Origin: an uncultured SAR116 cluster alpha proteobacterium
GTDB lineage: Bacteria > Pseudomonadota > Alphaproteobacteria > Puniceispirillales > Marisalimonadaceae
DNA: 59,497 nucleotides
NCBI GenBank assembly: GCA_902619485.1
Contig: CACNEF010000005.1
Span: 1 to 59,497 of the forward strand
Reading direction: 5' to 3'
Position 1 is the first letter of the stretch, and each line of letters starts with the position of its first letter. Positions 1,307 through 22,300 of this stretch are shown in pieces. The position numbers were made by a program, and so were the translations under genes. A model generated the notes under the pieces. That model saw nothing but the letters and a program-made list of their open reading frames with translations. It did not search any database and was not told the origin of the DNA.

Positions 1307-3937
1307 TTAATCATCATCATTCATGGCCTCAAATAAATTTGTAAGATATTCACCAGTTGATTTTAAACTTGTTACAGCTTGTTCCATACTTGTGAATTGT
1401 TGAATATATCTATTTCTGAGAGATTCCATCTGAGAATTTAAATCAACTAATAATGCTGATTGATCTGTCACTTCTTGATTAATCGTAGTTTCCCTCGTTG
1501 CAAGTTGTCCATTCGAGGTATTCAGGGTGTCAGTCAAAAATGAAGTTAGTTTTTCAATCAAACTTTGACCAAAGTAAATTGTTGCATCTGCACCAAGACC
1601 AGAATACTCCACTTTTAATCCTGCTGCATTTCCTGATGAAATAGTAAAAGTATTATTATTAATATCTGCTGACATTGAAACACCGTCCAATGTTGCCGAA
1701 CCTGTAACACCAGTAGTTGTTATCCCAGCTCCTGTAAAACCTAATGTCACAGATCCTGAAGTGTTAGCTGATGGAGTAATTGATGAAATTGTTTGAAATG
1801 TTTTAGAACCAATGACTGTTGCATTAGCCGCTGGTCCTGTAATAACTTCAGTTTGTGCGTTACCAGATAAATCAGTTCCAACAACAGTGAAAGTTTTGCC
1901 ACTTTCATCACCGCCAGCACTTACGATTGATGGTCGTTTTCCTGTAAGATCAACAAAAGCTGATTTTGTACCAATATTTACTCCTGAAGCAGATGCATTT
2001 GAAGAAATCTGTGTAATATCTTTAAAAATTTTTGTACCAACAACAGTATTTCCAGCTGTAGGACCAGTTATAGTTTCAGTTTGAGATGTCCCATTAATAT
2101 CTGTTCCTGTAATGGTGAATGTTACTGATGATAAATTATTTGAACTTTCTATAGTTACAAATGAATTTAAATCAGTAGCTGATCTAGGAGATGTTGAAGT
2201 TGTTTGTGCACCATCAAGTGTAAAATTACCTGAACTGCCTCGTGTTTCATTATCTACTAATCCATCGGGATCAGTTGCTGTAACTGACGCACCATTTAAT
2301 GTTAAAGCAGTGCTAGCTGTTCCAGCTTGAGAGGTTCCAATATTATCTGCATCGGTTGAACCTACAAACTTAAGAAACCCGTCTAGGTTACTTCCTATTG
2401 CATTTATAACCATTGAAGATGATGAACCAATAGATCCTGACTTAATCGAATAGCTACCATTTGCGTGAGTGACAACAACTGATTTCCCAGCAGCAATAAG
2501 TGTACTGTCTGCGTTTATCGCAGTTTGAATTGCAGTAGCAAGTGCTGCTTCAGAAGTATAATGAGCCGCAGGAACAGTTACTGATCCTGATTGAGTACCA
2601 TCAACTGTTATTTGAATAGTATTATTAGAGGCAGTTACTTCTGGTGATGTGTCGTTACTTACAAGACCTGTAAAAGCTCCTGACACATATGCTGTCATTG
2701 CAAAAGCATAAGATCCTGCTACAGGTTTAGAGTTTGTACCCCCACTTACTGATAATAAACTTGAAGAAGAAGAATACATTGAATTAAATATAGCATCTAA
2801 GGATGATGGATTATTTTTTAGTTCATTTTCCAATACAGTAGTATTCAGGCTAAGTAATCCATCTTTTTCAGTTCTGACTCCCAAATTGGAGAGATATACA
2901 CCATTTGCACCAAATCCCGTTAATTGAGAAGAAGTTAGTGATTCTAGTTGATTTTGAATACTTTTTACTACTGGATCGTCAGATAATTCACCAGCCTCTT
3001 TTGAAGCTGATCCTCTAAAAGTTTTTTCATTTAATAATGTTCTTGCATCATTAACTGCAGTTACAAAAGTTTGTAAGTTAGTTGTTGCAGAAGTTGTATC
3101 TACAGAGGCATTTAGATTTGCTGGAGTATCTACTCCATTAGATGAAGTAGATGCAAGTAAGCTTACATCATAACCCGTAAAAAGATCCGAAATATTATTT
3201 GATGACCTGGTTAATGAAATACCATCAACGGTAAAAGAAGCATCAGTTCCAGCAACTTTTTGTTTTGATCCATTCGTTGACGTATTATCAATAGTAGATA
3301 ATCCTGATCCTGATGGACTTTCTGAGGCTGTAACTCTTAACGCATTTTCTTTTCCGTTCTGTGATTTTAAAACAAGTGTATATGTATCGTCACCTGCGCC
3401 TAAAACACTTGCTGTTACACCATAGTTAAGTGCATTTATTTTATCCTTTAGTGATTCTAAAGTATCAGTTTCTGTAACTGTAAGTGTTTTTGACGTTACA
3501 GTTGAACTAGCAACGAAACTTCCTGACGACCAATCTCCTCTTTCTAAAACCAAGCTTCCTGCGCCAACAAGTGAAGTATTTGATGCGTAATCCTCAAAAG
3601 CTAATGTTTGGCCTTTTGCAAGTGATGAGATGCTTATACTAGAATTTATAGCTACCGCGGTGGATGGATCTGAAATACTTGCATTTACTGCTGAACTAGT
3701 TGAGCTTACTTTTAAAGAAGTGTTCCCAGTCAGAGTATTTAAAGACGTAGAAAGTTTAGATAAAGCACTTTTTATTTCACCAATTGCAGAAATAGCGGTA
3801 TTTCTTGCATCAATTTTGGACTGAATGTGGTTTTCTTGAGGAACCTGTTCAGCTTGTACAAGACTATCAACAATTTGGGTTATATTTAAACCACTACCAC
3901 CTTGATTAATTGCACTCAAATAATCTACTACAGCCAT
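1307..3937 (-). CDS. fliD: Flagellar filament cap protein FliD, enlarged
   Basis: FliD (HAP2) caps the growing filament and drives flagellin folding at the tip. The N-terminus (LNITQIVDSLVQAEQVP, ~18-34) and the C-terminal helix (residues ~835-872, including LRNRYIQQFTSMEQAVTSLK) are the FliD_N and FliD_C signatures. At 876 aa it is nearly twice the usual ~450-500. The excess lies in the middle: a DPDGL acidic linker at ~565, then two copies of the ~70-residue module B (~591-661 and ~671-740), which also occurs eight times in FlgK. A sigma-54-type promoter lies upstream at 3984-3999. The TPR-glycosyltransferase gene follows directly. The identity is secure; the role of the insert is unknown. 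Confidence 0.95.
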   Translation of the reverse strand: MAVVDYLSAINQGGSGLNITQIVDSLVQAEQVPQENHIQSKIDARNTAISAIGEIKSALSKLSTSLNTLTGNTSLKVSSTSSAVNASISDPSTAVAINSSISISSLAKGQTLAFEDYASNTSLVGAGSLVLERGDWSSGSFVASSTVTSKTLTVTETDTLESLKDKINALNYGVTASVLGAGDDTYTLVLKSQNGKENALRVTASESPSGSGLSTIDNTSTNGSKQKVAGTDASFTVDGISLTRSSNNISDLFTGYDVSLLASTSSNGVDTPANLNASVDTTSATTNLQTFVTAVNDARTLLNEKTFRGSASKEAGELSDDPVVKSIQNQLESLTSSQLTGFGANGVYLSNLGVRTEKDGLLSLNTTVLENELKNNPSSLDAIFNSMYSSSSSLLSVSGGTNSKPVAGSYAFAMTAYVSGAFTGLVSNDTSPEVTASNNTIQITVDGTQSGSVTVPAAHYTSEAALATAIQTAINADSTLIAAGKSVVVTHANGSYSIKSGSIGSSSSMVINAIGSNLDGFLKFVGSTDADNIGTSQAGTASTALTLNGASVTATDPDGLVDNETRGSSGNFTLDGAQTTSTSPRSATDLNSFVTIESSNNLSSVTFTITGTDINGTSQTETITGPTAGNTVVGTKIFKDITQISSNASASGVNIGTKSAFVDLTGKRPSIVSAGGDESGKTFTVVGTDLSGNAQTEVITGPAANATVIGSKTFQTISSITPSANTSGSVTLGFTGAGITTTGVTGSATLDGVSMSADINNNTFTISSGNAAGLKVEYSGLGADATIYFGQSLIEKLTSFLTDTLNTSNGQLATRETTINQEVTDQSALLVDLNSQMESLRNRYIQQFTSMEQAVTSLKSTGEYLTNLFEAMNDDD
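1715..2165 (-). repeat. Two tandem module-B copies inside fliD
   Basis: Two ~70-aa copies of the pattern FT(I/V)xGTDxxGxxQTExITGP ... VGxKxFxxIxxI ... V(N/T)xG follow each other. The same pattern recurs in FlgK (8960-12670). This is protein-level repetition; the DNA is diverged. Confidence 0.8.
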
Positions 3938-3983
3938 AAAAAACCTAAATAATAATTATAACTTTATAATACGGCAGTAATAC

Positions 3984-3999
3984 TGCAATTTTTATGCCT
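3984..3999 (-). promoter_or_regulatory. Sigma-54 promoter for fliD
   Basis: Read on the minus strand the site is AGGCATAAAAATTGCA. GG (-24) and GC (-12) are separated by exactly 10 bases, as RpoN requires. It lies about 50 bp upstream of the fliD ATG. The first base differs from the TGGCAT seen at most of the other sites. Confidence 0.65.
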
Positions 4000-4091
4000 T
4001 TAATTAAGAAAATTTTCTTAGATTAATAAATTTCAATTAAATTAAAATGACAATCAATTAAAATTATGTAGTAATTCTATTGGAGCTCATA

Positions 4092-5804
4092 ATGTTTAAA
4101 AAAATAAACATAAAAGAGATTAAAGAAAGCTTAGCTTTATTAGTTATTGCAGCAATAGTAGGTACTATTATTTCTTTTGTTGCGCAACTTTTTATTATTA
4201 GTGCAAAAAATATATATGATTTCTTATTTAATAATGAAAATTTTATCGTAGCAATAGATATTGGAAATTTATCACTTAACTTGGTGCCATTATTGATATG
4301 TGTCCCAAGTTCTCTTTTAGTTGGACTATTAATGTATAAACTCAAACTACCCAGGTGGTTTGGTCCTGCTGATACAATTTACGCTGCACATCACCATGCT
4401 GGTATTTTAGATTTAAAGGGTGGTTTTGGATCAACATTAGCGTCATTTATATCAATAAGTGGCGGTGCTTCAGTAGGTATTTATGGTCCTCTTGTACATT
4501 TTGGTGCAACTGTTTCATCATATATTAGACGACAACAATTTATACCTAAAATTCCCCATGATATTATAATTGGCAGTGGTGTTGCGGCGGCTATTTCTGC
4601 AGGATTTGGTGCTCCTTTAGCAGGTATAATTTTTGCTCATGAGACAGTATTAAGACATTTTTCAATGAAGGCAGTAGCTGCTCTGGCAATTTCATCAATG
4701 GCAGCCAATTTTTCTGCAACAGAAATTGGAATCGTAAGCCCTCCACTTCTACTTACTGCTATTCCTTTTGATATGGGTGACATAATAATAAGCTTAGGGA
4801 TTATTGGCCCATTAGCTGCAATTGTAGCAATACTTTTTATGAAACTAGTACTATTTACGGGTACCATTCCAACCAAAATTAATATTAAAAATTGGCAAGC
4901 TCCAATAATAGCTGGATTTGCTTGTGGTCTATGTGGAATGGTTTTTAGTGAGGTTTTGGGTTTGGGAACTGATGTTCTGATGTCTGTAATAACAAGCCAG
5001 CTATTATTCGGACATCTCTTAGCTCTTTTATTAGGAAAACTAATCCTAACTTCTATTTGTGTAGGATTTGGGTTTTTTGGTGGATTATTCTCGCCTGCGC
5101 TTTTTTTAGGTGGAGTTTTAGGTGCAATAGTATTTCAATTGCCTGTGACATCAGCCAACCCAGATTTACTTTCTGTACTTGCAGTCTCTGGAATGGCTGC
5201 TGTATCTAGTTCAGTGATTGGAGCACCTTTGACTGCTATAATTTTAGTTCTAGAGCTCACTGGATCTTATGAATATGCAATAGCTGCAACTTTCCCAATT
5301 GTGGTTTGTTCTTTCATAACTAGTAGAGTTTTTGCAAATAGCGTGTTTGACAAACAACTCATTTCAAGAGGAGTTGAAATTACAAAAGGTCGAGAACAAA
5401 TTCGCTTAAATGAAGCTTTGATAAAAAATTATGTTGATAGTCAATATACAAAATTAAAACTTACAACTTCTACGCAAAACGCTATCAAATTATTAACCAA
5501 ATCTAATACAACTGAAGGATATATAGTATCAGATGAAAACAAATATATTGGTAAGATCAGTCTATTAAATTTAATTAATAAAAAAAGTTCTAACCTTATA
5601 GATTTAGTAGAAAAAAAGCCTTTAATTATAGATCCTAATTCCAACTTAATTTTTGTAATAAAAAAATTATCGAAGTTTGTCGGTGAAAGTATACCAATTG
5701 TTAATAAGAAAAATAACGAAATGGTTGGCATAATATCAGAAAATGATGTTTTACAAGCATATCTTGATATTTCTGAAGAAATTAATCAGATAGAAAAACA
5801 TTAA
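4092..5804 (+). CDS. ClC-family chloride channel/transporter with C-terminal CBS domains
   Basis: This polytopic membrane protein of about 570 aa carries the ClC selectivity motifs: GGASVGIYGP (GxxGPxxH-like region, ~119-130), GFGAPLAG (GKxGPxxH-equivalent, ~165), and GGLFSPALFLGG (GxFxP, ~337). The last ~130 residues are hydrophilic and contain a pair of CBS-like segments (for example VGIISENDVLQAYL near the end). ClC proteins conduct Cl- or exchange Cl- for H+. The ATG at 4092 was chosen because GGAG lies 6 bases upstream; the in-frame TTG at 4080 would place that ribosome site inside the gene. It sits as a lone metabolic/transport gene between flagellar genes, divergent from fliD, with no visible link to motility. 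Confidence 0.92.
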   Translation: MFKKINIKEIKESLALLVIAAIVGTIISFVAQLFIISAKNIYDFLFNNENFIVAIDIGNLSLNLVPLLICVPSSLLVGLLMYKLKLPRWFGPADTIYAAHHHAGILDLKGGFGSTLASFISISGGASVGIYGPLVHFGATVSSYIRRQQFIPKIPHDIIIGSGVAAAISAGFGAPLAGIIFAHETVLRHFSMKAVAALAISSMAANFSATEIGIVSPPLLLTAIPFDMGDIIISLGIIGPLAAIVAILFMKLVLFTGTIPTKINIKNWQAPIIAGFACGLCGMVFSEVLGLGTDVLMSVITSQLLFGHLLALLLGKLILTSICVGFGFFGGLFSPALFLGGVLGAIVFQLPVTSANPDLLSVLAVSGMAAVSSSVIGAPLTAIILVLELTGSYEYAIAATFPIVVCSFITSRVFANSVFDKQLISRGVEITKGREQIRLNEALIKNYVDSQYTKLKLTTSTQNAIKLLTKSNTTEGYIVSDENKYIGKISLLNLINKKSSNLIDLVEKKPLIIDPNSNLIFVIKKLSKFVGESIPIVNKKNNEMVGIISENDVLQAYLDISEEINQIEKH

Positions 5805-5878
5805 TTAGATAATTTCTAAACATTTATGACATACATCCGTTTTAAATATTAAGACACATATTACTGTTGGAGTTTTAA

Positions 5879-6262
5879 ATGAATTATAACGCGTCTATGA
5901 GACAATATTTGAATGATGACATTAATGCTAAAACCACTGGCTTAGATCCTCATAAAATAATTGAAGAGGTTTTGAAAGATCTTAAGAAAAATATGGAAAC
6001 TTTAGCATATTCAATAGATCATGAACCTGTTATATCATCAATAAAATCTACTAGTTTTTCAAAATCCTTAACGGCAATATATATTTTGCAATCAAGTTTA
6101 AACTTTGATGAAGGAAGTGAAATAGCTGAAAACCTTTATCGTATTTACGATTTTGCTAAGGATGGAATTATGAAAGGTTTTACAAAAAGGGATTCCAAGC
6201 TTATTTATGACGCAATACCTCCAATTGATGAAATTTTGGATGGATGGAAACAAATTAAATAA
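5879..6262 (+). CDS. fliS: Flagellar export chaperone FliS
   Basis: FliS binds the C-terminus of unfolded flagellin in the cytoplasm before export. The 127-aa protein has FliS hallmarks: an all-helical prediction, an early Tyr-containing segment (MNYNASMRQYLND), the helix SLTAIYILQSSLNFDEGSEIAENLYRIYDF interpretable as the conserved L-x-x-L-D/G-x-I-A-x-N-L-x-x-L-Y block, and a terminal Trp (DGWKQIK). The length matches the family. A GGAG ribosome site precedes the ATG. Sequence is diverged but the pattern is clear. Presence of FliS rather than FlaF/FlbT suggests the non-Caulobacter style of flagellin handling. Confidence 0.8.
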   Translation: MNYNASMRQYLNDDINAKTTGLDPHKIIEEVLKDLKKNMETLAYSIDHEPVISSIKSTSFSKSLTAIYILQSSLNFDEGSEIAENLYRIYDFAKDGIMKGFTKRDSKLIYDAIPPIDEILDGWKQIK

Positions 6263-6341
6263 TATTACTATTGATTTAGCTACAAAAAGGTATATTTATC
6301 ATATATATTGATACCGTGCTTTCGTATTTATAGGTGATAAA

Positions 6342-6824
6342 ATGTCAAAATTTTGCCCTGAATGGATTTTTTCTACATTTGCTGCACAGACCAGCAAAGA
6401 ATTTTTATCTTCAAATAATTCTATTGCTGCCATTTCAAGGAAATATTCAATAGCAATTTCAGAACGATTTAATGAAGTAAAGTTTGAAGAAATTATGGAT
6501 TTAGCTGAAAAAATCCTACAATTTTTGTCTGAAATAAATGCTGGTGAGGAGGCAGTTAATTACATAAATGACTTTATTCATTATAGAGTTAAATATGAGT
6601 CAGGTGGAAGTGAAAGAAAACTATCTGGAATGTTCTCGTCGGCTTTTAATCCGACAAAAGTTAAAGACTATGGTTCAGATAAATGCTTTAAGATATTTAA
6701 AGCTACGGTTTTTAGTATTAGAAATGAAGCACTTCCTAAAGCAGAACCAGGATGGTTAATCACAGATGTAGAAGATATTGACTGGATTGGTGAAATTATC
6801 AATCAAGAAACTGATTTATTTTAA
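6342..6824 (+). CDS. Conserved-looking hypothetical protein in flagellar cluster
   Basis: This 160-aa protein is not recognised. It is soluble, with no signal peptide or membrane segment, and largely helical in its first 100 residues. It contains several Trp/Asp-rich stretches near the end (GWLITDVEDIDWIGEIINQ). It lies 79 bp after fliS on the same strand and ends 8 bp before the convergent flgL stop. Position suggests a flagellar assembly or secretion accessory role, but nothing in the sequence proves it. Confidence 0.75.
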   Translation: MSKFCPEWIFSTFAAQTSKEFLSSNNSIAAISRKYSIAISERFNEVKFEEIMDLAEKILQFLSEINAGEEAVNYINDFIHYRVKYESGGSERKLSGMFSSAFNPTKVKDYGSDKCFKIFKATVFSIRNEALPKAEPGWLITDVEDIDWIGEIINQETDLF

Positions 6825-6832
6825 ACTTTTAA

Positions 6833-8113
6833 TTATCTTAAATAATCAAATAAATTAAGTTGTGAAATTTTTACAAATGATTGCTGACTTGCTTGCATAG
6901 ACGTCAACATACTTTGTAAATTAGTTACTAATGATGCAAGATCTGCATCCTTTAAATCACTTACATCTTTTTCAACCCCTAATCTTCGGTTAGCTAAAAG
7001 CTCTATTTGCCTCTCAAGAGAGTTAGTTCTAGCTCCAATTTCACCTCTATTATTCGCAATATGTACCTGAGTTGAAGCTACATTATCTAATTGTTTTGAT
7101 GGTAATTGATCATTATCATATAACTTTTGAACACCACCTATGTTGTTTCCAATTCCATCTGTAGGTTGAACTTTAAAAAATGAAGTAGGATCTTTTTGTG
7201 CAGTTTCAATTCCATAAACAGAAAGATTCTTAATTTCCATTGGACCGTTGACTGAGTCAGTTAATTTAATTGTTTTTCCATCATCCATTATAGTTGCAAC
7301 AACCCCAGTGTTCCCAAGATTAATTTGCCTTACAAACTCTGCAGGATCTTCACCTGTAATTTCAGCTGTAATTGTTGCTGTACCCAAATTTCCTGTTAGA
7401 TCGAAAGTCCATGTGCCAGGGTTTTTATTCTCAAAAGTAAGTTCCGCTACACCTGTTGATTTTACTGAATCGACACCTCCAGAAGCCGTCCTTATTGAAT
7501 AGCTAATATCTTCTAACATTTGGAAAATTGAGACATTCTTTCCTGATGGTCCCTTTACAGCTTGAAATAAAGTTCCTCCATCAAGTGTTGTCTCTATTAC
7601 TCTAGACTCAGAAATAGATAAAGATGCTATACCCCTATCTCCTTTATAATTTATTTTGCCAGCTAAATCTTTGACAAAAGGAATAGTATTTGTTTTGTAG
7701 CCACTGAATAAAAAACTTCCATTACTATCTTGTGCATTAGCTAAACTTAATATTTCTTCTTTCATCTGATCAACTTCAATAGCAATTGCTTCTCTATCTG
7801 ATGCACCTAAAACGTCACTTGAAGCCTGGATGATCAATTCCTGAACTCTTATAAAAACATTTGATAAGTTTTCTAAATTTTTATCTATTAATGATAATCT
7901 ATCATCAGCTGAATTTACGTTTCTCTCATATTGTTCAATTTGCTTTTTAACAACAATTAGGCCTGATAACTCAACAGATCCAACTGGATCATCTGAAGCC
8001 CGTAAAATATTTTCACCAGTAGCAATTTTATTCTGAAGATCTTGAAGTTCTTCAGTTGTTGATGAAAATTGTTTTAATTGCTGTTGATTAAATAATTTTG
8101 AACTAATCTGCAT
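6833..8113 (-). CDS. flgL: Flagellar hook-filament junction protein FlgL
   Basis: FlgL (HAP3) joins the hook-side FlgK layer to the filament. The 426-aa protein has the flagellin-like N-terminus (TGENILRASDDPVGSVEL, ~32-49) and a helical C-terminus (residues ~375-426) related to flagellin D0/D1. It is moderately longer than the usual ~310-400 aa and, unlike its neighbours FlgK, FlgE and FliD, does not carry obvious phage-like modules. It follows flgK by 18 bp and is the last gene of the flgG-H-I-J-K-L run. Confidence 0.93.
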   Translation of the reverse strand: MQISSKLFNQQQLKQFSSTTEELQDLQNKIATGENILRASDDPVGSVELSGLIVVKKQIEQYERNVNSADDRLSLIDKNLENLSNVFIRVQELIIQASSDVLGASDREAIAIEVDQMKEEILSLANAQDSNGSFLFSGYKTNTIPFVKDLAGKINYKGDRGIASLSISESRVIETTLDGGTLFQAVKGPSGKNVSIFQMLEDISYSIRTASGGVDSVKSTGVAELTFENKNPGTWTFDLTGNLGTATITAEITGEDPAEFVRQINLGNTGVVATIMDDGKTIKLTDSVNGPMEIKNLSVYGIETAQKDPTSFFKVQPTDGIGNNIGGVQKLYDNDQLPSKQLDNVASTQVHIANNRGEIGARTNSLERQIELLANRRLGVEKDVSDLKDADLASLVTNLQSMLTSMQASQQSFVKISQLNLFDYLR

Positions 8114-8131
8114 TTTAAATAACTCTAATTA

Positions 8132-11100
8132 CTAAACAACCTCTATTAGAGATTGGAACATTTCTTTAGCAGTTTGCAAAATTCGTGCCGAAGCTTGATA
8201 TGCTTGTTGAAACTCGAGTAAGTGTGCAGCTTCTTCATCAAGATTAACTCCAGCAAATTCACTTTGACTCGCCTCTGCTGCATCTAATGTGCTTGATGCT
8301 GAATCGAGAGATAACTTACTTGCTTGAACATTTGATCCTACTTTAGCAACAGTAGTATTAAAAATTTCTTGAAAATTTCCTTTATTGCCACCTGATTTGT
8401 CTGACCCTTGAAGACCTAAAATATTTACAATGTTTCTGTTGTCTCCAAAACCATCCTTATTACTTGAAAAATCAAAGCTATTATTAACTATAGTCTCATC
8501 AGAGAATTGAAATTTCGTATTATTTATTTCAAAAACTCTGTTAACGTCTAAAATTCTTGATGCAATCGAATGACCAGAAACTTTATCAAAAATTTCAACT
8601 TTATTGTTATTTGATGAATCTACCTTAATTGTAAGTTCAGGTATATCTTCTGTATATTCGCTCTCTGAAAATTTGTCATATTCAGCACTAATTTTTCTAG
8701 CACCACCTCCCATAACAAAGGTAATCAAATCCTCTGGTGGTAAATTTGTTAAACTTATTTTTTCTGCAACTGAATTTTGAATTGAACCAGATGGTACATC
8801 AACTTTTACTGGCTCACCTGAGAACGATGAAACCTTAAGACTATCATTATCAATAACAGCTCTAATGTTTTGAGTTTTTAAGCCATATACAAAATCGGCA
8901 TTAGGACTGCTTTCAATTTTAAAGTCAACTTTATCAATAGTATTGCTTAATGATAATCTACCAACTTTTTGAGTACCTACCTTTACTGTTGAAGCAGATG
9001 CACTTGTAGGCACTATAGATGAAATCTGAGAAAACACTTTGGTTCCTGTTACAGTCTCAATAGCGGCTTTTGCAGTTAAAACTTCAGTTTGTGCGTTACC
9101 AAATTGATCCAAACCCGTAATTGTATATTTTTCTCCAACATCAGACCCTGCTGGTGTGATTGTAATTACCTGTGGCTCCATAACAACCTGAGTTGCTTGT
9201 ATTCCAACCTTAATAGTACTTGCTGAATTGTTGGCGACAGTAATAGATGAAATTTCATTAAAAGAAATTGTACCAGTTGCTGTAGAGTTGTTAACTCCAG
9301 AAATTGTCTCAGTTTTAAAAACACCAGATGTATCGTAACCTGAAACCACAAAAGAGTTACTAGTTTCATTTCCATTACAAAAAATAGTTACTTTGCCATT
9401 TAATGATTTAGATTTTGCCAAGGCCCCTTCTAAATATAAATCACCTGCTGTAACTGATTGACTTGTTAACAAGCCATCATCGTCAGTGGTTGATAAAATA
9501 CCATCAGTAATTATACCAACTCCTGCTAACATATTACCATTATACAGAGAATCATCATCAGTTGTGCCTGATGATTCATTCCATGACAAGGTTATAGAAC
9601 TTGGTGGTGAACCACTAATTGCTGAGCCATCACTATTAAAAAATACTGGAACATTTTTAGTATCAAATTTTATAGTATAATTTGACTTTACATTGTTTTC
9701 CGTAACTTCAATACCAATTGCTGGACTTGATGTTGTGGGTTGAACAACAAAATTTCCAAGCATTGTAGTTGTTCCTTCTTTTAAACCAAATGTTTCTGCA
9801 TTAGCCGTATTTGCAGTATTAGAAACTAACTTAAGTTGAGCACCTTCAATTGTACCTTCTGCTGTTGCTATAAGCTCGTATCCAGATGCTGTTCCAATTT
9901 CAATGTTACCTGTGGTATTTAATGTTGGAGTAATTGAGTGAATTGTTTTAAATAAACCTAAAGATACAGCAGTTTTTCCAGAATTTGGGCCAAAAATAGT
10001 TTCAGTTTTACTTAAACCATCTGTACCTGTACCAACTATTGTAAATGAATTACTACTTTCGTCTGCAGTCGCAGTAATAGACACTCTTGTGCCTAATGAT
10101 GAAACAAAGGCTGGTGTCGTTCCAATTTCAACATCGCCATGGTCACCATCAACTCTTACTTCAGTAACTGTTTTAAAAACTTTAGTTCCTACATTAGTTG
10201 CATTGTTGCCATTCACACCAGTAATTTCATCTGTAATTACATTACCGTCTAGATCAGTACCAGTAATAGTGATTTTAAAAGCAGTATTATCATCGTTGTC
10301 GGTATTTTTAATTGTTATTCTAGAATTAAGAGATGTGCTATCTTTGAGTGCTCCAGTAAGTGGAATTACCGGAAAATTAGCATTTGATGGGTCTGGATTC
10401 ATATCTTGAACAATCCCATCACTATCTGCTGCTGTAGAATTTAAACCATTAATAGTTACAGGTGTGGCTGCAGTACCAGTCTGGGATACTGCAATCAAAT
10501 TATTTATATTTTCTGATGTTCCATTAAAGCGTGCTTTAATTCTATTTGTTTCAGGTCCTTCAACTAATACTTCTCCTGATACCATTTTAAGAGTATAGAC
10601 TTGTCCTTCAAAACTTAAATCTACAGATTTACCATCTTGAGGTAGTGCATTTAGGACAACACTTTTTACTTGAGATGTTGGCGATTGAGATCTAAGTGAT
10701 GTAAGCAATGCAGTAGAAATTTCTTTTTGTGTATCAATGTTTAATTCATTTGCATCGATGGTTGTACCCCAATTTCCGTCAGCTGCTTTAGTTCCAATCT
10801 TAATTTGTCCATTACTAGTTCCTGAAGAATTTATAGAAGTAACAGACTTAAAAATATTGGTTGTAGTTACAACACCACCATTTGATCCAACTATACTTTC
10901 TGAAATAACTTCGTTATTCAGACCCAACCCAGCAATCACAAATGTTGTTCCTGTTGTGTCTTCCCTACTCTTAATTTGAATTTTTGCTCCAAGATAATTA
11001 GACGTGCTCAATACACCATTCATTGAAATGGCACCTGAAGAAAAATTTGTTAATTGAACCAAGCTATCATCGTCATTAATATCATTATGACCAACTGTTC

Positions 11101-14100
11101 CAATATTTATATTACCACCTGGTCTAACAGTAGAGCTTATAGAACTTATAGTAGTAAATTTTGTAGAACCCGCGGCTGTATTGGCTACTGTTCCAATCTT
11201 AATGTTGCCACTTGGAGTAACTGAAGTCGTAATTGAAATTATTTTACTAAATTTTTTTGTACCTTCAGCTGTATTATTAGCTGTCTTACCTGTAATTTGT
11301 TCTGTAATAATAGTACCACTTGAGTTATATCCAGTAACTGTAAATGTGTTTTTACTTTCATCCGCAGAAGAGAAAATGGTTACAGCTGCATTTAAATTGT
11401 CGACACTACTTAAAGAACCATTTAGTGAGATAGCCCCTGCAGAACCAGGATTTCCTATAGTGAATAAGCTATCATCATCAGTAGCTCTCGCACCTGTAAT
11501 TTGTTCTGTAATAGTTGTACCACTTGCGTTTGTTCCAGTAACAGTAAATGTGTTTCCGCTTTCATCCGCAGAACAATAAATGGTTACAACTGCATTTAAG
11601 TCATTAGCATCTTTTAATGCTCCATCAAGTGTAATAGTTCCCGAAGAAGCAGGTCTATTTGAGGTGAACAAACTATCATCGTCACTCACGAATAATTTAT
11701 AATCTTTTTGATTTAAATCAATTCCATACTTTGATAACCCAACAATAGCCTTTTTACCATTAGGAGATCCAACACTATTATCTAAGTCATCAAAGATCTC
11801 GGGTTTAACAGTAACAACTTCGCCTGTTTTACTCCTATCAATATTTATATATCCATTAGTTAATGAGTCTATAACTGCTACTTTAGAAACTCCTGAATTT
11901 ATTTGTGTTGTAAAAGTTTCACTAGATGTAAATTTTATCTCACCCTTGATATTTGCTGATACTTTTTTTGTATTACTAATGTCTATTAATAATTTTGAAT
12001 TTAATTGAGAGTCGTTTTCACTAAATTTTTCAAAATCTTTTCCATATCCTTCAAGATAAAAATCTGAGGGTGCAGTTATATTTTTTAAATTAATGTCATA
12101 TCCATCTTTAGATTCAATGATTATTTTCTTAAAATCAGACGTAACTGTTGCTAATAAACCTGTCTGTGAAGAATACTCATTAATTCTTTTTGCAAGTGCT
12201 GAAATATCGCTGGCATCGATACTTGCGTTGATTGATACTGCATCAGAGTTTTTACCCTTTAAATCGAATGTTATTGCGCCACTAACACCATCATCAAACG
12301 GACCAAGTAAAACTCTTGTATTTGCTGATACATTTACTCCAGTACCCGCTAACTCGGTATTCAATTTATTAGCTAAATAAAAAGCACTAGAACCCACGGG
12401 TACATTTGTAGTTTTTTCTATATTATCATCATTAATAACTTTAAGAGTGTAGCCAACAGCTTCTGTTCCTATAGTGATCTTGCCAGCTAAATCACCATCT
12501 ATACTTATATTTCTTACCCTGCTGAAAACTTTACTACCAACTGCTGTAGTTGCATTACCACCAGGAATAGTTTCAGTTTGATATAATCCATCTAAATCAT
12601 AACCTGTAACAGTAAATGTTCTTCCTGATTCATCTTTCTCACATGCAATTGAAATATATGAATTAAGTTCTTTTGAATGTATTTTTGTTCCATCAAGCGT
12701 TATAATTCCGGAAGAAAAATCTTTTATTGAGGCGCCATTTGCGTGTGCTGCTGCTGTAGATGTAAGATTGTTAACTGTTGTTCCCCTAACTACACCTGTA
12801 AAAGAAGTTGCAGTTACACCAGTGTAAGTCACATATTCTGATCCAATTAATAATGTACCAGCTGCAGGATATCCTGTTGTACTTGCGACATTAATGGTAG
12901 TAGCCGTTGGGTCTAATGCTTGAGAAATGGTTGTATTTCTATCATGTTTTGCAGCTGTTGTACTACTTACTGCTCTGGTTACCCCAGTAAAAGTTGTTCC
13001 TGTTTTACCTGTGTACGTAAAAAGCTCGTCACCAATTTGAATAGCACCAGCAGAAGCAAATGATGAAGTGTCTGCTACAGTTATTGTTCCTGAACTAGAC
13101 ATGATGTCGCCACTTCCAATAACTAAATTTACAGCAGCGCTATGTGCATGATCCTCAGCAGTACTACCTTCTTGAGCCCTGGTTACACCTGTTAGATTAT
13201 TTCCACTGACACCTGTATATGTGAAATATTCAGAACCAATTTTAATTGTTCCTCCGGCACTAGGAAAACCTGTAGTAGACTGAAGTGGTATTTGAGTAAC
13301 AGCGCTAGTACCTAATGTTCCACCAGAGTTGTTGTAAGTTGACTGTGCACCTGTAACAGTAGTTGCAGCAGTATAATTTAATGATGTTTCTCTTAGTGTA
13401 GTTTCAATCAACGATACAGTCTTGGAAGTTAACAAACCATCCATATCAGTTTCTTGTTCATTATAACTAAGGTTTGATCCAAAACTGCTTACAAAATCTC
13501 CACTTGCTGTTTTCCTTATTATGTTTGTACCTCTATAATTATTGTTCAAATAATCATTTCTATATTCAGCACTCTCTAAAAATCCATTTTCTTTTTTTAT
13601 TAATGAAGCTATTTGAATTGCATTAAGAGATGTTCCAGATACATGCCTACCATCCCTTGTAAAAACCTGTAAATTACTAGCTGCTGTCTCACCAGCTGTT
13701 AAATTCGTAATTGAGGGAGTAAAGGAATTGCCTCTAGACAAAATTGAAGAACTCTCAATATCTAAAGAAGATGAAGCAATTGTAAGATAACCATTTGATC
13801 CAGTAGCAAATAAACCTAATTTTTTAAAATCATGTTGACTTTTCCCGTCTAACGTTAAACCAGAATTTAGTAATTTAGCAAATTCTTCAACTGATCTAAT
13901 TCCATCTCCAGGATCTGTAGCTGCAGAGCTTATTGTGATTTCTTCATCATTGCCACCATCTGTAAGTTTAATACTAAATGATGAAAAACCTTTAATATCT
14001 GCATCTGAAATTGTAAATGTAGCTGATGATTGGTTTCCAAGAGAACTTAAATTGATTGATTTTGTGGTTGAAGGAATTGTAGTCACAGGACCATCTTTTA

Positions 14101-15541
14101 AAAAAGTTGTAGCAACCAAAGGGTTTCCACTAGAAGAAAAAACTTCATCAATAGTAGAAGGATAATCTATATCAGCTTGTGTTGTTGTACCTATGATATT
14201 TAATTCTACATCACCTACATTAGATGCACTTTTTGAGACTAAATTTTTTGAAGCAGCTGCAAAATCTTCAGGATTTTGAAGATGAAATTTCATAGCTCCT
14301 GCTTTTGTTAAAGATGGAGATATTTGAAAACCATCACCATCTTGGGGTTGACCAATAATTTCAACTTGAAATCCATTAAAATTAATTTTATTTCCTACAG
14401 CCTTAGACAAACCCTTGGAATCTCTTATTTCCCAGTTATTATTTATTTTTGAATAATTAACTAAAATTTTCTCTTGGGTAATTTTACTTGGATCACCCTC
14501 AATTATATTAAATTTTAATTGTGATTTATTATTAAAATTGGCTTGTGGTAACATTGAATTCACGGAAAACATAGCTTTTCCGGATTTGCCATTTAGATCA
14601 ATTCCAGAAATTTGAATTTCGTTTACATCATTTGAAAATTGTTCTGCAAGTTGATTTATTTCGCTACTCACTGAATCAACTAAATTATAAAAATTGGAAA
14701 TCCCATATATAATACCTGAAGAAAAAATACCTGGATTTTTTCTCCCACCACCTTCATTTATAACTAGTGAAACATTTTTATCATCATATGAAGATGAAAT
14801 AGTTGAGCCTTTAGCTCTGTTGACTAAAAAAGCTCCATTACCTGAGTCACCTAATCTTACTATTGCCTCTCCCGTACCTGCGTAATCAACAGTAAAATTT
14901 AAAAGTTTTGATAAATCTATAAGCAACTTGTCTCTTGCATCTAAGACATCGTTTGATGCGTCACTTGAACCACTAGTAGCAATGAGTTTATTTATTTCCA
15001 CCAACTGATTTATATATAAGTTAGCTTCTTCAATTTTGATATCTATTTGCTTTATTGAGTTTGTTTTAAAATTTTTAAATTGATCATCATAACTATTAAA
15101 AGCAGAAGCTAATGCTTTACCAGCTTCTAAAGATACTGTTCTTGCAGAAATGCTATCAGGATTACTTGCTACATCTTGAAGAGTATCAAAAAATCTACCT
15201 ATGAAAACACCTAAATCACTTCCTGAAGGCAATAACATGTTTTCTAAGTCACTTAACTTAGAAACGAAATCATTTAACATTTCATAATCAGATTGTGAGG
15301 TTCTCGTTTTATCTGCAAGATAAGCGTCAAACGATCTACGAACATTGTTAACCCTGACACCCAAGCCTGTGCTATCTGAAACGTTTGTTGGTCCACCTGT
15401 CACACCAGCAACTTCACTGATGTCTGCACTTCTTTTATTGTATCCATCAGTGTTTATGTTAGCAATATTCTGGCCTGTTACTGATAAAGCCTGTCTATAT
15501 GCTTGAACACCTGTTTTTCCAATTTCAAATAAGGAGGCCAT
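8132..15541 (-). CDS. flgK: Flagellar hook-associated protein FlgK, giant (2469 aa)
   Basis: FlgK (HAP1) forms the ring between hook and filament. The ends are canonical: SLFEIGKTGVQAYRQALSVT with NIANINTDGYNKR at the start, and NLDEEAAHLLEFQQAYQASA at the end. FlgK is usually ~450-650 aa; here roughly 1,850 extra residues lie between ~435 and ~2300. They comprise three module-A copies (~745-935), eight module-B copies (between ~957 and ~2194), and acidic DDDSL/DxDG linkers. The frame is open throughout, so this is not a fusion artefact from a frameshift within the visible sequence. The start overlaps the flgJ stop (TAATG). The gene alone is 7.4 kb, a large cost in an AT-rich genome. Family identity is secure; the function of the insert is unknown. 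Confidence 0.95.
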   Translation of the reverse strand: MASLFEIGKTGVQAYRQALSVTGQNIANINTDGYNKRSADISEVAGVTGGPTNVSDSTGLGVRVNNVRRSFDAYLADKTRTSQSDYEMLNDFVSKLSDLENMLLPSGSDLGVFIGRFFDTLQDVASNPDSISARTVSLEAGKALASAFNSYDDQFKNFKTNSIKQIDIKIEEANLYINQLVEINKLIATSGSSDASNDVLDARDKLLIDLSKLLNFTVDYAGTGEAIVRLGDSGNGAFLVNRAKGSTISSSYDDKNVSLVINEGGGRKNPGIFSSGIIYGISNFYNLVDSVSSEINQLAEQFSNDVNEIQISGIDLNGKSGKAMFSVNSMLPQANFNNKSQLKFNIIEGDPSKITQEKILVNYSKINNNWEIRDSKGLSKAVGNKINFNGFQVEIIGQPQDGDGFQISPSLTKAGAMKFHLQNPEDFAAASKNLVSKSASNVGDVELNIIGTTTQADIDYPSTIDEVFSSSGNPLVATTFLKDGPVTTIPSTTKSINLSSLGNQSSATFTISDADIKGFSSFSIKLTDGGNDEEITISSAATDPGDGIRSVEEFAKLLNSGLTLDGKSQHDFKKLGLFATGSNGYLTIASSSLDIESSSILSRGNSFTPSITNLTAGETAASNLQVFTRDGRHVSGTSLNAIQIASLIKKENGFLESAEYRNDYLNNNYRGTNIIRKTASGDFVSSFGSNLSYNEQETDMDGLLTSKTVSLIETTLRETSLNYTAATTVTGAQSTYNNSGGTLGTSAVTQIPLQSTTGFPSAGGTIKIGSEYFTYTGVSGNNLTGVTRAQEGSTAEDHAHSAAVNLVIGSGDIMSSSGTITVADTSSFASAGAIQIGDELFTYTGKTGTTFTGVTRAVSSTTAAKHDRNTTISQALDPTATTINVASTTGYPAAGTLLIGSEYVTYTGVTATSFTGVVRGTTVNNLTSTAAAHANGASIKDFSSGIITLDGTKIHSKELNSYISIACEKDESGRTFTVTGYDLDGLYQTETIPGGNATTAVGSKVFSRVRNISIDGDLAGKITIGTEAVGYTLKVINDDNIEKTTNVPVGSSAFYLANKLNTELAGTGVNVSANTRVLLGPFDDGVSGAITFDLKGKNSDAVSINASIDASDISALAKRINEYSSQTGLLATVTSDFKKIIIESKDGYDINLKNITAPSDFYLEGYGKDFEKFSENDSQLNSKLLIDISNTKKVSANIKGEIKFTSSETFTTQINSGVSKVAVIDSLTNGYINIDRSKTGEVVTVKPEIFDDLDNSVGSPNGKKAIVGLSKYGIDLNQKDYKLFVSDDDSLFTSNRPASSGTITLDGALKDANDLNAVVTIYCSADESGNTFTVTGTNASGTTITEQITGARATDDDSLFTIGNPGSAGAISLNGSLSSVDNLNAAVTIFSSADESKNTFTVTGYNSSGTIITEQITGKTANNTAEGTKKFSKIISITTSVTPSGNIKIGTVANTAAGSTKFTTISSISSTVRPGGNINIGTVGHNDINDDDSLVQLTNFSSGAISMNGVLSTSNYLGAKIQIKSREDTTGTTFVIAGLGLNNEVISESIVGSNGGVVTTTNIFKSVTSINSSGTSNGQIKIGTKAADGNWGTTIDANELNIDTQKEISTALLTSLRSQSPTSQVKSVVLNALPQDGKSVDLSFEGQVYTLKMVSGEVLVEGPETNRIKARFNGTSENINNLIAVSQTGTAATPVTINGLNSTAADSDGIVQDMNPDPSNANFPVIPLTGALKDSTSLNSRITIKNTDNDDNTAFKITITGTDLDGNVITDEITGVNGNNATNVGTKVFKTVTEVRVDGDHGDVEIGTTPAFVSSLGTRVSITATADESSNSFTIVGTGTDGLSKTETIFGPNSGKTAVSLGLFKTIHSITPTLNTTGNIEIGTASGYELIATAEGTIEGAQLKLVSNTANTANAETFGLKEGTTTMLGNFVVQPTTSSPAIGIEVTENNVKSNYTIKFDTKNVPVFFNSDGSAISGSPPSSITLSWNESSGTTDDDSLYNGNMLAGVGIITDGILSTTDDDGLLTSQSVTAGDLYLEGALAKSKSLNGKVTIFCNGNETSNSFVVSGYDTSGVFKTETISGVNNSTATGTISFNEISSITVANNSASTIKVGIQATQVVMEPQVITITPAGSDVGEKYTITGLDQFGNAQTEVLTAKAAIETVTGTKVFSQISSIVPTSASASTVKVGTQKVGRLSLSNTIDKVDFKIESSPNADFVYGLKTQNIRAVIDNDSLKVSSFSGEPVKVDVPSGSIQNSVAEKISLTNLPPEDLITFVMGGGARKISAEYDKFSESEYTEDIPELTIKVDSSNNNKVEIFDKVSGHSIASRILDVNRVFEINNTKFQFSDETIVNNSFDFSSNKDGFGDNRNIVNILGLQGSDKSGGNKGNFQEIFNTTVAKVGSNVQASKLSLDSASSTLDAAEASQSEFAGVNLDEEAAHLLEFQQAYQASARILQTAKEMFQSLIEVV
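8960..12670 (-). repeat. Eight module-B repeats in flgK
   Basis: Each copy follows the pattern xxTFTVTGxDxxGxxxTExITG ... xGTKxFxxIxSI ... SGxIxIGT. Approximate copies are at 12670-12440, 11600-11460 (truncated), 11400-11090 (with an extended tail), 11000-10770, 10330-10110, 10095-9885, 9400-9180 and 9175-8960. Several are preceded by an acidic linker (DDDSL) and a short GxIxLxGxLxxxxxLN strand pair. Similar modules are known to me from tailed-phage virion proteins (recollection, not a search). Confidence 0.8.
12735..13310 (-). repeat. Three module-A repeats in flgK
   Basis: Three adjacent ~55-60 aa units share the pattern (T)xxFxxxGxIxIGxExxTYTGxxxxxFTGVTR...A..H, for example GTLLIGSEYVTYTG and GAIQIGDELFTYTG. 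The same module occurs three times in FlgE. Confidence 0.85.
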
Positions 15542-19330: not shown

Positions 19331-22300
19331 TTATGTTCTAATTTGTATAATCGCTTGTGTTAGACTTGTATTAGTCTCAATTGTTTTAGCATTCGCTTGG
19401 AAGTTTCTTTGCGCAGTAATCAAGTTAACTAACTCTTCAGTAATATCAACATTTGATCTTTCTAAAGAACCAGATAAGATTGTACCATAACCATCAGCAC
19501 CAGCTTCCCCAACTGCAGCAACACCTGAAACTGAAGTTTCAACATATGTTGCGTTACCAATTTGTTTCAATCCGTTTTGGTTATTAAAATTAACCATAAC
19601 TAATCTTCCAAGAGCAATGTTCAAACCGTTAGTATAGTTAGCACTAACTAATCCGTTAGCAGCAATGTCCAAACCATCTAACTTACCAACTGTTTGTCCA
19701 TCTTGAGTAACCGTCCTAACATTAAAGTCAGATGCAAATTGAGTTGATCCATCAAAATCTAGATCTAAATCAATCGATAGAGCGTTAGTACCTGCTGCTG
19801 CGTCTGCTGCAAAATCACCTTTATAATTCACTTTTTGTGTTGGACTTACCAAGTTACCTTGAGTATCAAATGTTAGTTCTCCTGGTCTTAAAAATACTTT
19901 TGCAAAAGTACCATCAGTAGTTGGTGTCCATGCATTATCTGGTGCAAGAGTTGTTGTTGTTCCAGCATCATTAACATACAAAGACTGACCAGTATCTGAT
20001 TTAGCAATCGTATTAGCCATATTAACAAATGAAGGTGTAGTGCCTGTTTGCAGTTCAAGATCATTTAATCCCATACGAGCACTTGCTGATACAAATATTT
20101 TACTATTTAACCCTGTTGTTCCTGTAGTAAATGTAAATGAATTGCTTGTTGTATTGTATACTACAGTCACACCGTTGACAGTGTTGCCTGAAGAGTCTTC
20201 CATCTGATTAATTCTTGATTGCAATGCCGTTGCCAAAGAGGTTCCGTTATATACTCCTTCAGGCACTTTAATAGCAGCAGTTATATCATTTACGTTTACA
20301 ACAAAAATTGTTTCTTCAGCGGCGTCTGATAAAAAGAAATCTTCAGACAAATCTTCGTTTGAAGTTTTTCCATTTAAAACTGCAGCTTCTGATTGTAAAC
20401 CTTTACCAGAAGTATCTGCAGTAACAGTGGTAATTTCGTTAGTGGCATTTATTCCTAGTAAAGCACTTGTACCACCAATACCTGCAGCTGAGGCTGTTGC
20501 CACGCCATCTACTATTGCTAATCTTCCAATTTCTATATTTGATGAAGCCTGACCTGCATCTCCAACACCTACAGCAGAGTTTGCAGGTATATTTTCACCG
20601 GTAGTTCCACTAGCAATACTAAATTTTCTAGTCAGGTTGTTATAAGATACTTCTACACCAAAAGCTTGCTGAGTATCTGCAGCAATCTGGTCACCAGTAA
20701 ATAAAACTGATTCAGCTTTTAAAACTGCACCACCACCAATATTTGAAGATGCCTTATTACTTAACGTTTTTAAACCAATAGCGTTGGTACCACTACCTTC
20801 ACCTGGTCCATATGCTGAAAATGAAAACATTTTACTTGAAGTAGATGTACCAATTTTTGAAGGTATGCCCTGTAAAGTAAAGTTTTGTCCAGATATATCA
20901 TAAGCTATCCTTAATGCTGGGTCATCTTCATCTACCCAGTCATCAGTGTTAGAAATTTCTTGTGTAATAATAGCATCATTCGTGTGACTAGTTGCAGTTG
21001 TTCCCGCAACACCTCTTGTTAACCCTGTAAAGCTTGTTGCGGTTTTACCCGTATATGCAATCACTTCATTACCTATTCTGATAAAACCACTATCCTCAAA
21101 ATCTGCAGTAGAATCTACAGTAATAGTTGTTGCTGTAGCATTTACATCTGTGTTAACGTCAGTCGTTCTATTAGATAATCCTAGGTTAACTACACTATCA
21201 AATAAACTTACGGAAGCTCCAACCGCAAGTGCCTTACTTTCGCTATTGTCAACACTTCGAGTGATACCGGTAAGACTTGTAGCAGTTTTTCCAGTGTAGG
21301 TAATAATCTCATCGCCAAGCTTGATTTTTCCTGGTGCATCAGCCGTTGCATCAGTAAAACCTGCTGTTGATCCAACATTTAACACTTCAGAGTCTGCCGG
21401 TAAAAAGGTTATTGAGGTATCATCTGCTATAGCAGCAGTCGTAGCTGCACTTATAGTTATTGTATTTGCATTAACGTTTGTAACTGTAGTACCAGCAGTT
21501 ACGCCAGCAACTTCAACAATGTCACCTACTGAGATATTTGTGTTAGCATCTACTACAATAGTAGTTGCTCCAGCAGCTACTGCACCATCATTAAGAACTT
21601 GAGCACCTAAACCATCAGCGTCAACAAAATTTATCTCATCACCATTAATATCACCACCATTTACATTGGTAGCTGCATCCTTTGATAAAGTAATTACATT
21701 ACCGTTGATTGCGCTTACAGTTGTAGCTGAGTCAATATTAGTGCCATATACAGAATCTCCTACTGTAATGCCGGTTACATCTGCAACAGTAAGGCTTCGT
21801 CGATTTGCTGAATAATCAAGAGTTCCAGTAGTATGACTACTCGACAAAAATGTAACTTTAGTTCCAGCAACAGTTGAAGTTGTAGCTGTAAGTGCTGCAG
21901 TTGTGTTTGCACTTAAAGTTACAGTAGAAGTACTATGATTAATGACAGTAACCCTTGTATTAGCTGGTATACCAGCACCAACAACCATATCACCTACTCT
22001 TATACCTTTAGTTCCTCCATCTACAACTAAAGAGTTACTGTTTTGTCCTGCCGCACCTGTTGTTTCTCTAATTATATTTGTTGCTGCAGTGGTTGATGTA
22101 TTTCTTAAAATATCCTTAAAACCACTCATAATACCATCCGTAAAAGTTAATAACTTTATTGAGGCATCATCAAGATGTGCAGCAGGATTAGTACTATTAG
22201 CACCTCTTGTTATTCCAGTAAAAGTTGTTGCTGTAGTTCCAGTATATGTTATTTGCTCTGTTCCAATCAATAAAGTACCAGATATTGGGAAACCTGCTGT

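Follow-up and report, generated by a model that had tools for sequence, protein, structure and literature searches.

Repeated modules with phage virion relatives in the axial flagellar proteins of a SAR116-cluster alphaproteobacterium

Foreign domains in flagellin are already known, and several described systems can be compared with the one analysed here: two small repeated modules, A and B, which lie between the conserved ends of the flagellar hook, junction and cap proteins (FlgE, FlgK and FliD) encoded by an uncultured SAR116-cluster alphaproteobacterium (NCBI GenBank assembly GCA_902619485.1, contig CACNEF010000005.1, positions 1 to 59,497). This whole stretch of 59,497 nucleotides is referred to below as the window. 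The giant flagellins of Bermanella and Oleibacter (PMC6248924) likewise belong to marine bacteria and combine large insertions with internal duplication between conserved flagellin ends. In the accessible part of that source, the extra insert of one giant flagellin has no significant matches except related flagellins, and the word “phage” does not occur, whereas the insert considered here has phage virion relatives and is common to hook, junction, cap and filament. Flagellinolysin, as described in the available sections of PMC5595980, is likewise a case of a foreign domain placed in the exposed central part of an axial protein, there a metallopeptidase within flagellin; in our material several axial proteins are involved, and a Pfam search revealed no peptidase family in FliD, FlgK, FlgE or the scanned flagellins. 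Flagellin-remodelling prophages provide a further likeness because phage genes change the host flagellum, but according to the available part of PMC13418256 they bring a flagellin isoform and a regulator, whereas here single modules are situated within the bacterium’s own axial genes. Flagellin outer domains can, as far as the portion of PMC8931119 at hand goes, form sheaths and alter motility.

For the foreign outer domains analysed here a nameable and testable source can be proposed, the virion modules of phages, and a single set of modules recurs in several axial proteins; among the papers listed by our searches of the open-access literature we found no report of a phage virion origin for inserts across hook, junction, cap and filament. 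We suggest, with a probability of roughly 0.6, that exposed flagellar domains took up virion modules from phages, that the copies were then multiplied by duplication and by transfer from one axial gene to another, and that they most likely function as surface decoration.

Module copies in the axial proteins

The genome to which the window belongs (1.62 Mb, 43 contigs) has a completeness of about 78%. The filament cap protein FliD (1307..3937, 876 amino acids (aa); Pfam FliD_N 2.6e-13, FliD_C 3.6e-33), the hook–filament junction protein FlgK (8132..15541, 2469 aa; NCBIfam TIGR02492 7.2e-71, Pfam FlgK_D1 1.2e-44) and the hook protein FlgE (19331..24445, 1704 aa; Pfam FlgE_D2 8.7e-17, Flg_bbr_C 8.7e-16) are all encoded on the minus strand, as are the module copies within them. 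The terminal domains of the three proteins score above the curated Pfam cut-offs, and FlgK is also above the NCBIfam flgK_ends cut-off; FlgK and FlgE are very large, yet their terminal domains are ordinary. In its best segment, FliD is 85–97% identical to proteins from single cells and assemblies of the SAR116 cluster and other alphaproteobacteria (first 11 of 29 public-genome loci).

The initial annotation had described module B in FliD and FlgK and module A in FlgK and FlgE, and the stretches it pointed out provided the seed alignments for our profiles of module A (about 59 aa) and module B (about 68 aa). Profile scans recovered both modules where they had been described. FliD contains two B modules, copy 1 at 1967..2167 and copy 2 at 1736..1933. 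FlgK contains eight, at 12464..12664, 11189..11392, 10790..10990, 10118..10327, 9890..10093, 9200..9400 and 8972..9175, with a partial copy at 11468..11596. Three A modules were detected in FlgK (copies 1 to 3 at 13127..13306, 12923..13099 and 12722..12910) and three in FlgE (copies 1 to 3 at 22154..22330, 21206..21397 and 20963..21139). Sequence comparison further revealed a third repeat of FlgE, “module C”, present in three copies between two A modules (21392..22039); in viral contigs, 12 of 250 candidate stretches of this repeat were confirmed. The repeat pattern is real and larger than noted: the FlgE copies (20963-22330) are located outside the interval given by the initial annotation (1715..13310), and module C and the copies found elsewhere in the genome are additional to it.

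Throughout the genome, module B occupies 16 places, the remaining six being distributed equally between two of the three flagellins on contig 3, and module A occupies seven, the last being a weak match in a 452-aa open reading frame (ORF). The third flagellin (664 aa) and FlgL (426 aa) gave neither module in the scans. The 452-aa ORF (locus L054, 4956-6296, contig 3) is situated beside a putative purM-like gene, and Pfam at 0.01 assigned no family to it.

The modules behave as discrete units. FliD orthologues have one or two B modules and differ in length by about 100 residues; copy 1 is missing in the shorter orthologues, which align with copy 2, so that module units are evidently gained and lost. 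The initial annotation had proposed an exchange of modules between phage surface proteins and flagellar axial proteins; an exchange among the axial proteins themselves is indicated by a cassette that FlgK shares with a flagellin. Two relatives (loci L159 and L164) possess a 981-aa flagellin with the arrangement A-A-A followed by B modules; Flagellin_N and Flagellin_C are present in these proteins, as in the flagellins FliC1 and FliC2, which identifies all four as bacterial flagellins. The cassette of the window, A-A-A-B with flanks (about 384 residues, 12299..13450, minus strand), corresponds to FlgK residues 699-1082 and matches residues 398-804 of the L159 flagellin with 56% identity over 419 positions (E 4e-101). 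Five FlgK proteins have an A-A-A block 82-87% identical to that of the flagellin; A-rich blocks from elsewhere, two in viral ORFs and one in a phage-like ORF from a different bacterium, show 38-50% identity to the A-A-A of FlgK and flagellin. Copying of the cassette between genes of two different axial proteins is the most economical account of these identities.

Relatives among phage proteins

The initial annotation had pointed to very similar modules in virion proteins of marine tailed phages. Relatives of both modules are indeed frequent in viral contigs (habitat unstated) and, in the examined cases, belong to virion proteins. Among the matches listed, tblastn confirmed at least 513 of 600 candidate stretches for module A and at least 514 of 600 for module B; later viral scans confirmed 47 of 99 for B and, again among the matches listed, at least 455 of 600 for A. 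With profiles made solely from bacterial copies, matches were obtained in 99 (A, best E 7e-24) and 92 (B, best E 1e-23) of 6029 viral ORFs; after reversal or shuffling, none of these ORFs matched either profile. These ORFs come from 160 loci of the first two viral scans, fetched for carrying such patterns; as the viral loci were selected for a module match, the counts do not represent prevalence, and it is the strength of the matches and the controls that carry the point. By these comparisons, module A is homologous to phage virion proteins and module B to phage-encoded proteins, both above controls.

Of the 282 viral loci of four scans, 150 hold a near-complete copy of A and 124 one of B. The carriers of A form 15 ORF clusters. 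The PHROG families matched by their representatives are tail sheath, baseplate wedge, tail fibre, tail protein and major head protein, the last with A inserted; several further representatives match PHROG through the module itself only, and phrog_4406 matches FlgE with 1e-13. The carriers of B are far more uniform, 80 of 92 falling into one cluster. Typically, B is carried by a protein of about 211 aa; two such proteins were scanned and showed no PHROG match. The gene of the B protein is the second after the capsid gene in locus L217 and in the isolate phage HTVC023P, and from this gene place the protein is probably a virion part. Since B genes are near the capsid gene in the examined cases, one may even guess that B decorates the capsid. 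The 76 ORFs neighbouring module genes in 12 viral loci include major head, portal and baseplate genes. In one viral contig, a homing-endonuclease-like gene (L196, 4203-5078) lies close to a module B gene.

No Pfam family above its curated cut-off covers A or B in FliD, FlgK or FlgE; 15 module B stretches searched at 0.1 gave just two chance-like rows, and a search with 45 B rows from FliD and viral loci brought up weak, scattered matches, of which LCCL (0.003) was the best. Tailed phages possess Ig-like decoration domains, small beta modules that occur as insertions in a wide range of unrelated virion proteins. Modules A and B resemble them in modular insertion and differ in staying below the Pfam cut-offs, the match to a bacterial Ig family reaching just E 0.033 in two viral rows of those 45. 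The best PDB fold matches of module B are common beta folds. This result, together with the simple composition of the modules, could suggest that they are generic T/G-rich beta repeats which are merely alike and share no descent. Such an explanation is very improbable given the empty reversed and shuffled controls, the conserved G, D, E and F positions, the similarity extending upstream, and the rarity of the modules in the class and phylum samples described below.

Relatives of a phage linked to the SAR116 cluster are among the carriers. One A-bearing tail protein has as its best isolate match gp44 of Puniceispirillum phage HMO-2011, whose host we take to be a SAR116 member. The gp44 of HMO-2011 itself has no module. 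A gp44-like ORF is present in 48 fetched viral loci. In 45 of them the alignment spans 250 residues or more; A is present in 30 of these and B in the other 15, the set being without module-free members by the choice of loci. Six of the 30 align with gp44 in two separate segments that flank A, and the interruption falls at gp44 residues 91-98; the two flanks in locus L132 are 74% and 79% identical to gp44. The alignment in most other A-bearing ORFs covers one side or runs through. For B, the region of insertion is alike and the exact junction is not, because nothing before the module aligns in the 15 B-bearing ORFs; the coat protein of one B-bearing contig (L187) is 72% identical to that of HMO-2011. 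Judging from these alignments, the gp44-like region represents a site of module gain and loss. SAR116 is an abundant marine group, and as relatives of a phage infecting one of its members carry the same modules at such a site, the flow of surface domains between phage and host becomes directly testable.

Distribution, trees and direction of transfer

Both modules are concentrated in one bacterial family. Module B was found in 47 of 58 genomes of the family to which the window belongs, in one of 78 others of the order, in one of 288 others in a class sample and in one of 397 others in a phylum sample, the last two samples consisting partly of the same genomes. Module A was found in 46 of 58 family genomes (E up to 1e-3), in none of the 78 others of the order, in none of the 288 others of the class sample and in six of the 397 others of the phylum sample; absences within the family mean little because many of its genomes are incomplete. 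We infer from the rarity of the modules in other sampled bacteria that capture by the flagellum from phages is the likelier direction.

Few carriers were detected outside the family. For module A they include an ORF of a tail-fibre family (phrog_11439, 1e-116), ORFs in four genomes that gave nothing beyond weak matches to tail, sheath or baseplate families, and, weakly, a putative prepilin-like ORF next to similar ORFs (genome G442, locus L294, 1090-2748). For module B they are an ORF beside a capsid-like ORF in one bacterial genome and a 9496-aa ORF of another alphaproteobacterium with B twice (genome G698, contig 2, loci L287 and L288). The last ORF, together with the A-like stretches in the prepilin-like ORF and in the 452-aa ORF, would fit a common pool: a third source, for instance giant adhesins or other secreted proteins, on which phages and flagella drew separately for their modules. 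We regard this as unlikely: such carriers are few, module B occurs outside the order in just two genomes of the class and phylum samples, and one of these has it beside the capsid-like ORF.

Phylogenetic trees were constructed without the isolate phage loci, leaving out copies which cover less than 80% of the profile and collapsing the rest at 72% identity. Rows were counted as flagellar when the copies came from loci of the same family or genome; the carriers were verified individually for the window, L038, L159, L164, L009, L031 and the FliD set, the other loci being classed by origin alone. In the module A tree (76 rows), the flagellar rows need nine changes, at least three by starred branches, and FlgK copies 1 and 2 stand within phage clades (98/88 and 97/83). 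In the module B tree (80 rows), eight changes are needed, at least three by starred branches, and phage rows are joined by two FliC1 copies, those at 787 (100/89) and 673 (98/85). When all flagellar rows are constrained to a single group, the likelihood falls by 50 (A) and 26 (B) log units. The initial annotation had named nesting within phage clades as the sign of transfer. These four copies group with phage copies on starred branches, and they may descend from phage copies, within the limits set by the topology tests given below.

In nearest-neighbour comparisons, a phage copy was nearer than the paralogue from the same genome in six of six A copies and in nine of 15 B copies; with equal numbers drawn at random, the phage copy was nearer in 0.83 (A) and 0.25 (B). 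It looks as if A had been drawn several times from the phage stock, and B fewer times with more internal duplication.

Several observations weigh against a phage origin. Approximately unbiased (AU) tests do not reject a single flagellar clade for A (p-AU 0.069) or B (0.213), so that the phage-to-flagellum direction of exchange is not proven, and the trees are carried by 59 (A) and 67 (B) columns only. The FliC1 copy at 787 pairs also with the 9496-aa bacterial ORF, which leaves room for a third source. The nearest-neighbour test is biased, because the viral copies were fetched by their similarity to flagellar ones, and in the size-matched draws B paralogues are usually nearer to each other. 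Among seven isolate-phage stretches scanned, just one has A (CRP-902, E 7e-12) and one has B (HTVC023P, E 1e-8), and neither module was detected in the 37.5 of 55.3 kb of HMO-2011 that were scanned. The size of the proteins is also not explained by the modules alone: outside the family, 37 of 43 matched FlgK open frames of the order measure 1114-2031 aa where A was not found, so the modules seem to be one of several ways in which these proteins grew. Finally, the FlgD Tudor-like family PF13861 overlaps module B at residues 601-634 of the flagellin FliC2 (L038, 5115-7670) below its cut-off (21 bits against 26.9, E 4e-4), a weak match which would fit an inner-flagellar origin of B. A scan of the 15 B stretches by themselves gave no match to PF13861.

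This last match is one of the arguments for the reverse flow, according to which flagellar or surface proteins of bacteria are the birthplace of the modules, and phages took them as decoration or as a mimicry of the host surface. The flagellar copies are also many and present in most sampled genomes of the family, and both modules recur in a tail protein of phages related to a SAR116 phage. Nevertheless, we consider it improbable, since outside one family the modules are rare in sampled bacteria, the viral A copies are spread over 15 ORF clusters and several unrelated virion families, and two FlgK copies nest inside phage clades.

Proposed mechanism and surface function

If the phage origin holds, modules A and B would be small beta domains which pass as units from one tailed-phage virion protein to another. 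Their capture would have taken place, probably more than once, in an ancestor of this SAR116 family, and would have brought them into the surface-exposed outer part of the hook (FlgE), junction (FlgK), cap (FliD) and filament (FliC), leaving the tube-building ends of the proteins intact. Their number might then have been raised by tandem duplication and by the copying of cassettes between axial genes. The position of the modules between conserved tube-building ends, read against the known architecture of the flagellum, suggests that they face outwards in all these structures.

Exposed modules on phages are thought to give bulk and weak adhesion. One can suggest that on the flagellum they most likely serve as surface decoration, adding bulk and weak adhesion to glycans, particles or other surfaces, which would be the most economical function. 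The insertion of such modules in flagella as well as in virions suggests a single stock of surface building blocks used by these bacteria and the viruses alike. We put forward a broader version of the proposal tentatively, as possible without favouring it: the whole outer surface of the flagellum in this SAR116 family, from hook to cap, may have been rebuilt with modules repeatedly captured from tails and heads of HMO-2011-type phages attacking these cells, and a common stock of surface domains would let the cell bind, disguise itself or compete at the surfaces that the phage uses.

The initial annotation had considered evasion of phages, that is, a shield or decoy against phages that seek the flagellum. 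Phages bearing the same modules are not obviously repelled by them, and no flagellum-using phage of this family is known to us, both of which weigh against this function and make it hardly probable. In its favour, the accessible part of PMC7018530 presents phages and immune systems as presumed selective forces on the variable outer regions of flagellins.

Inside the flagellar cluster, a 574-aa ORF adjoins fliD (window 4080-5804); judging by its appearance, it encodes a putative CLC-type chloride channel with CBS domains.
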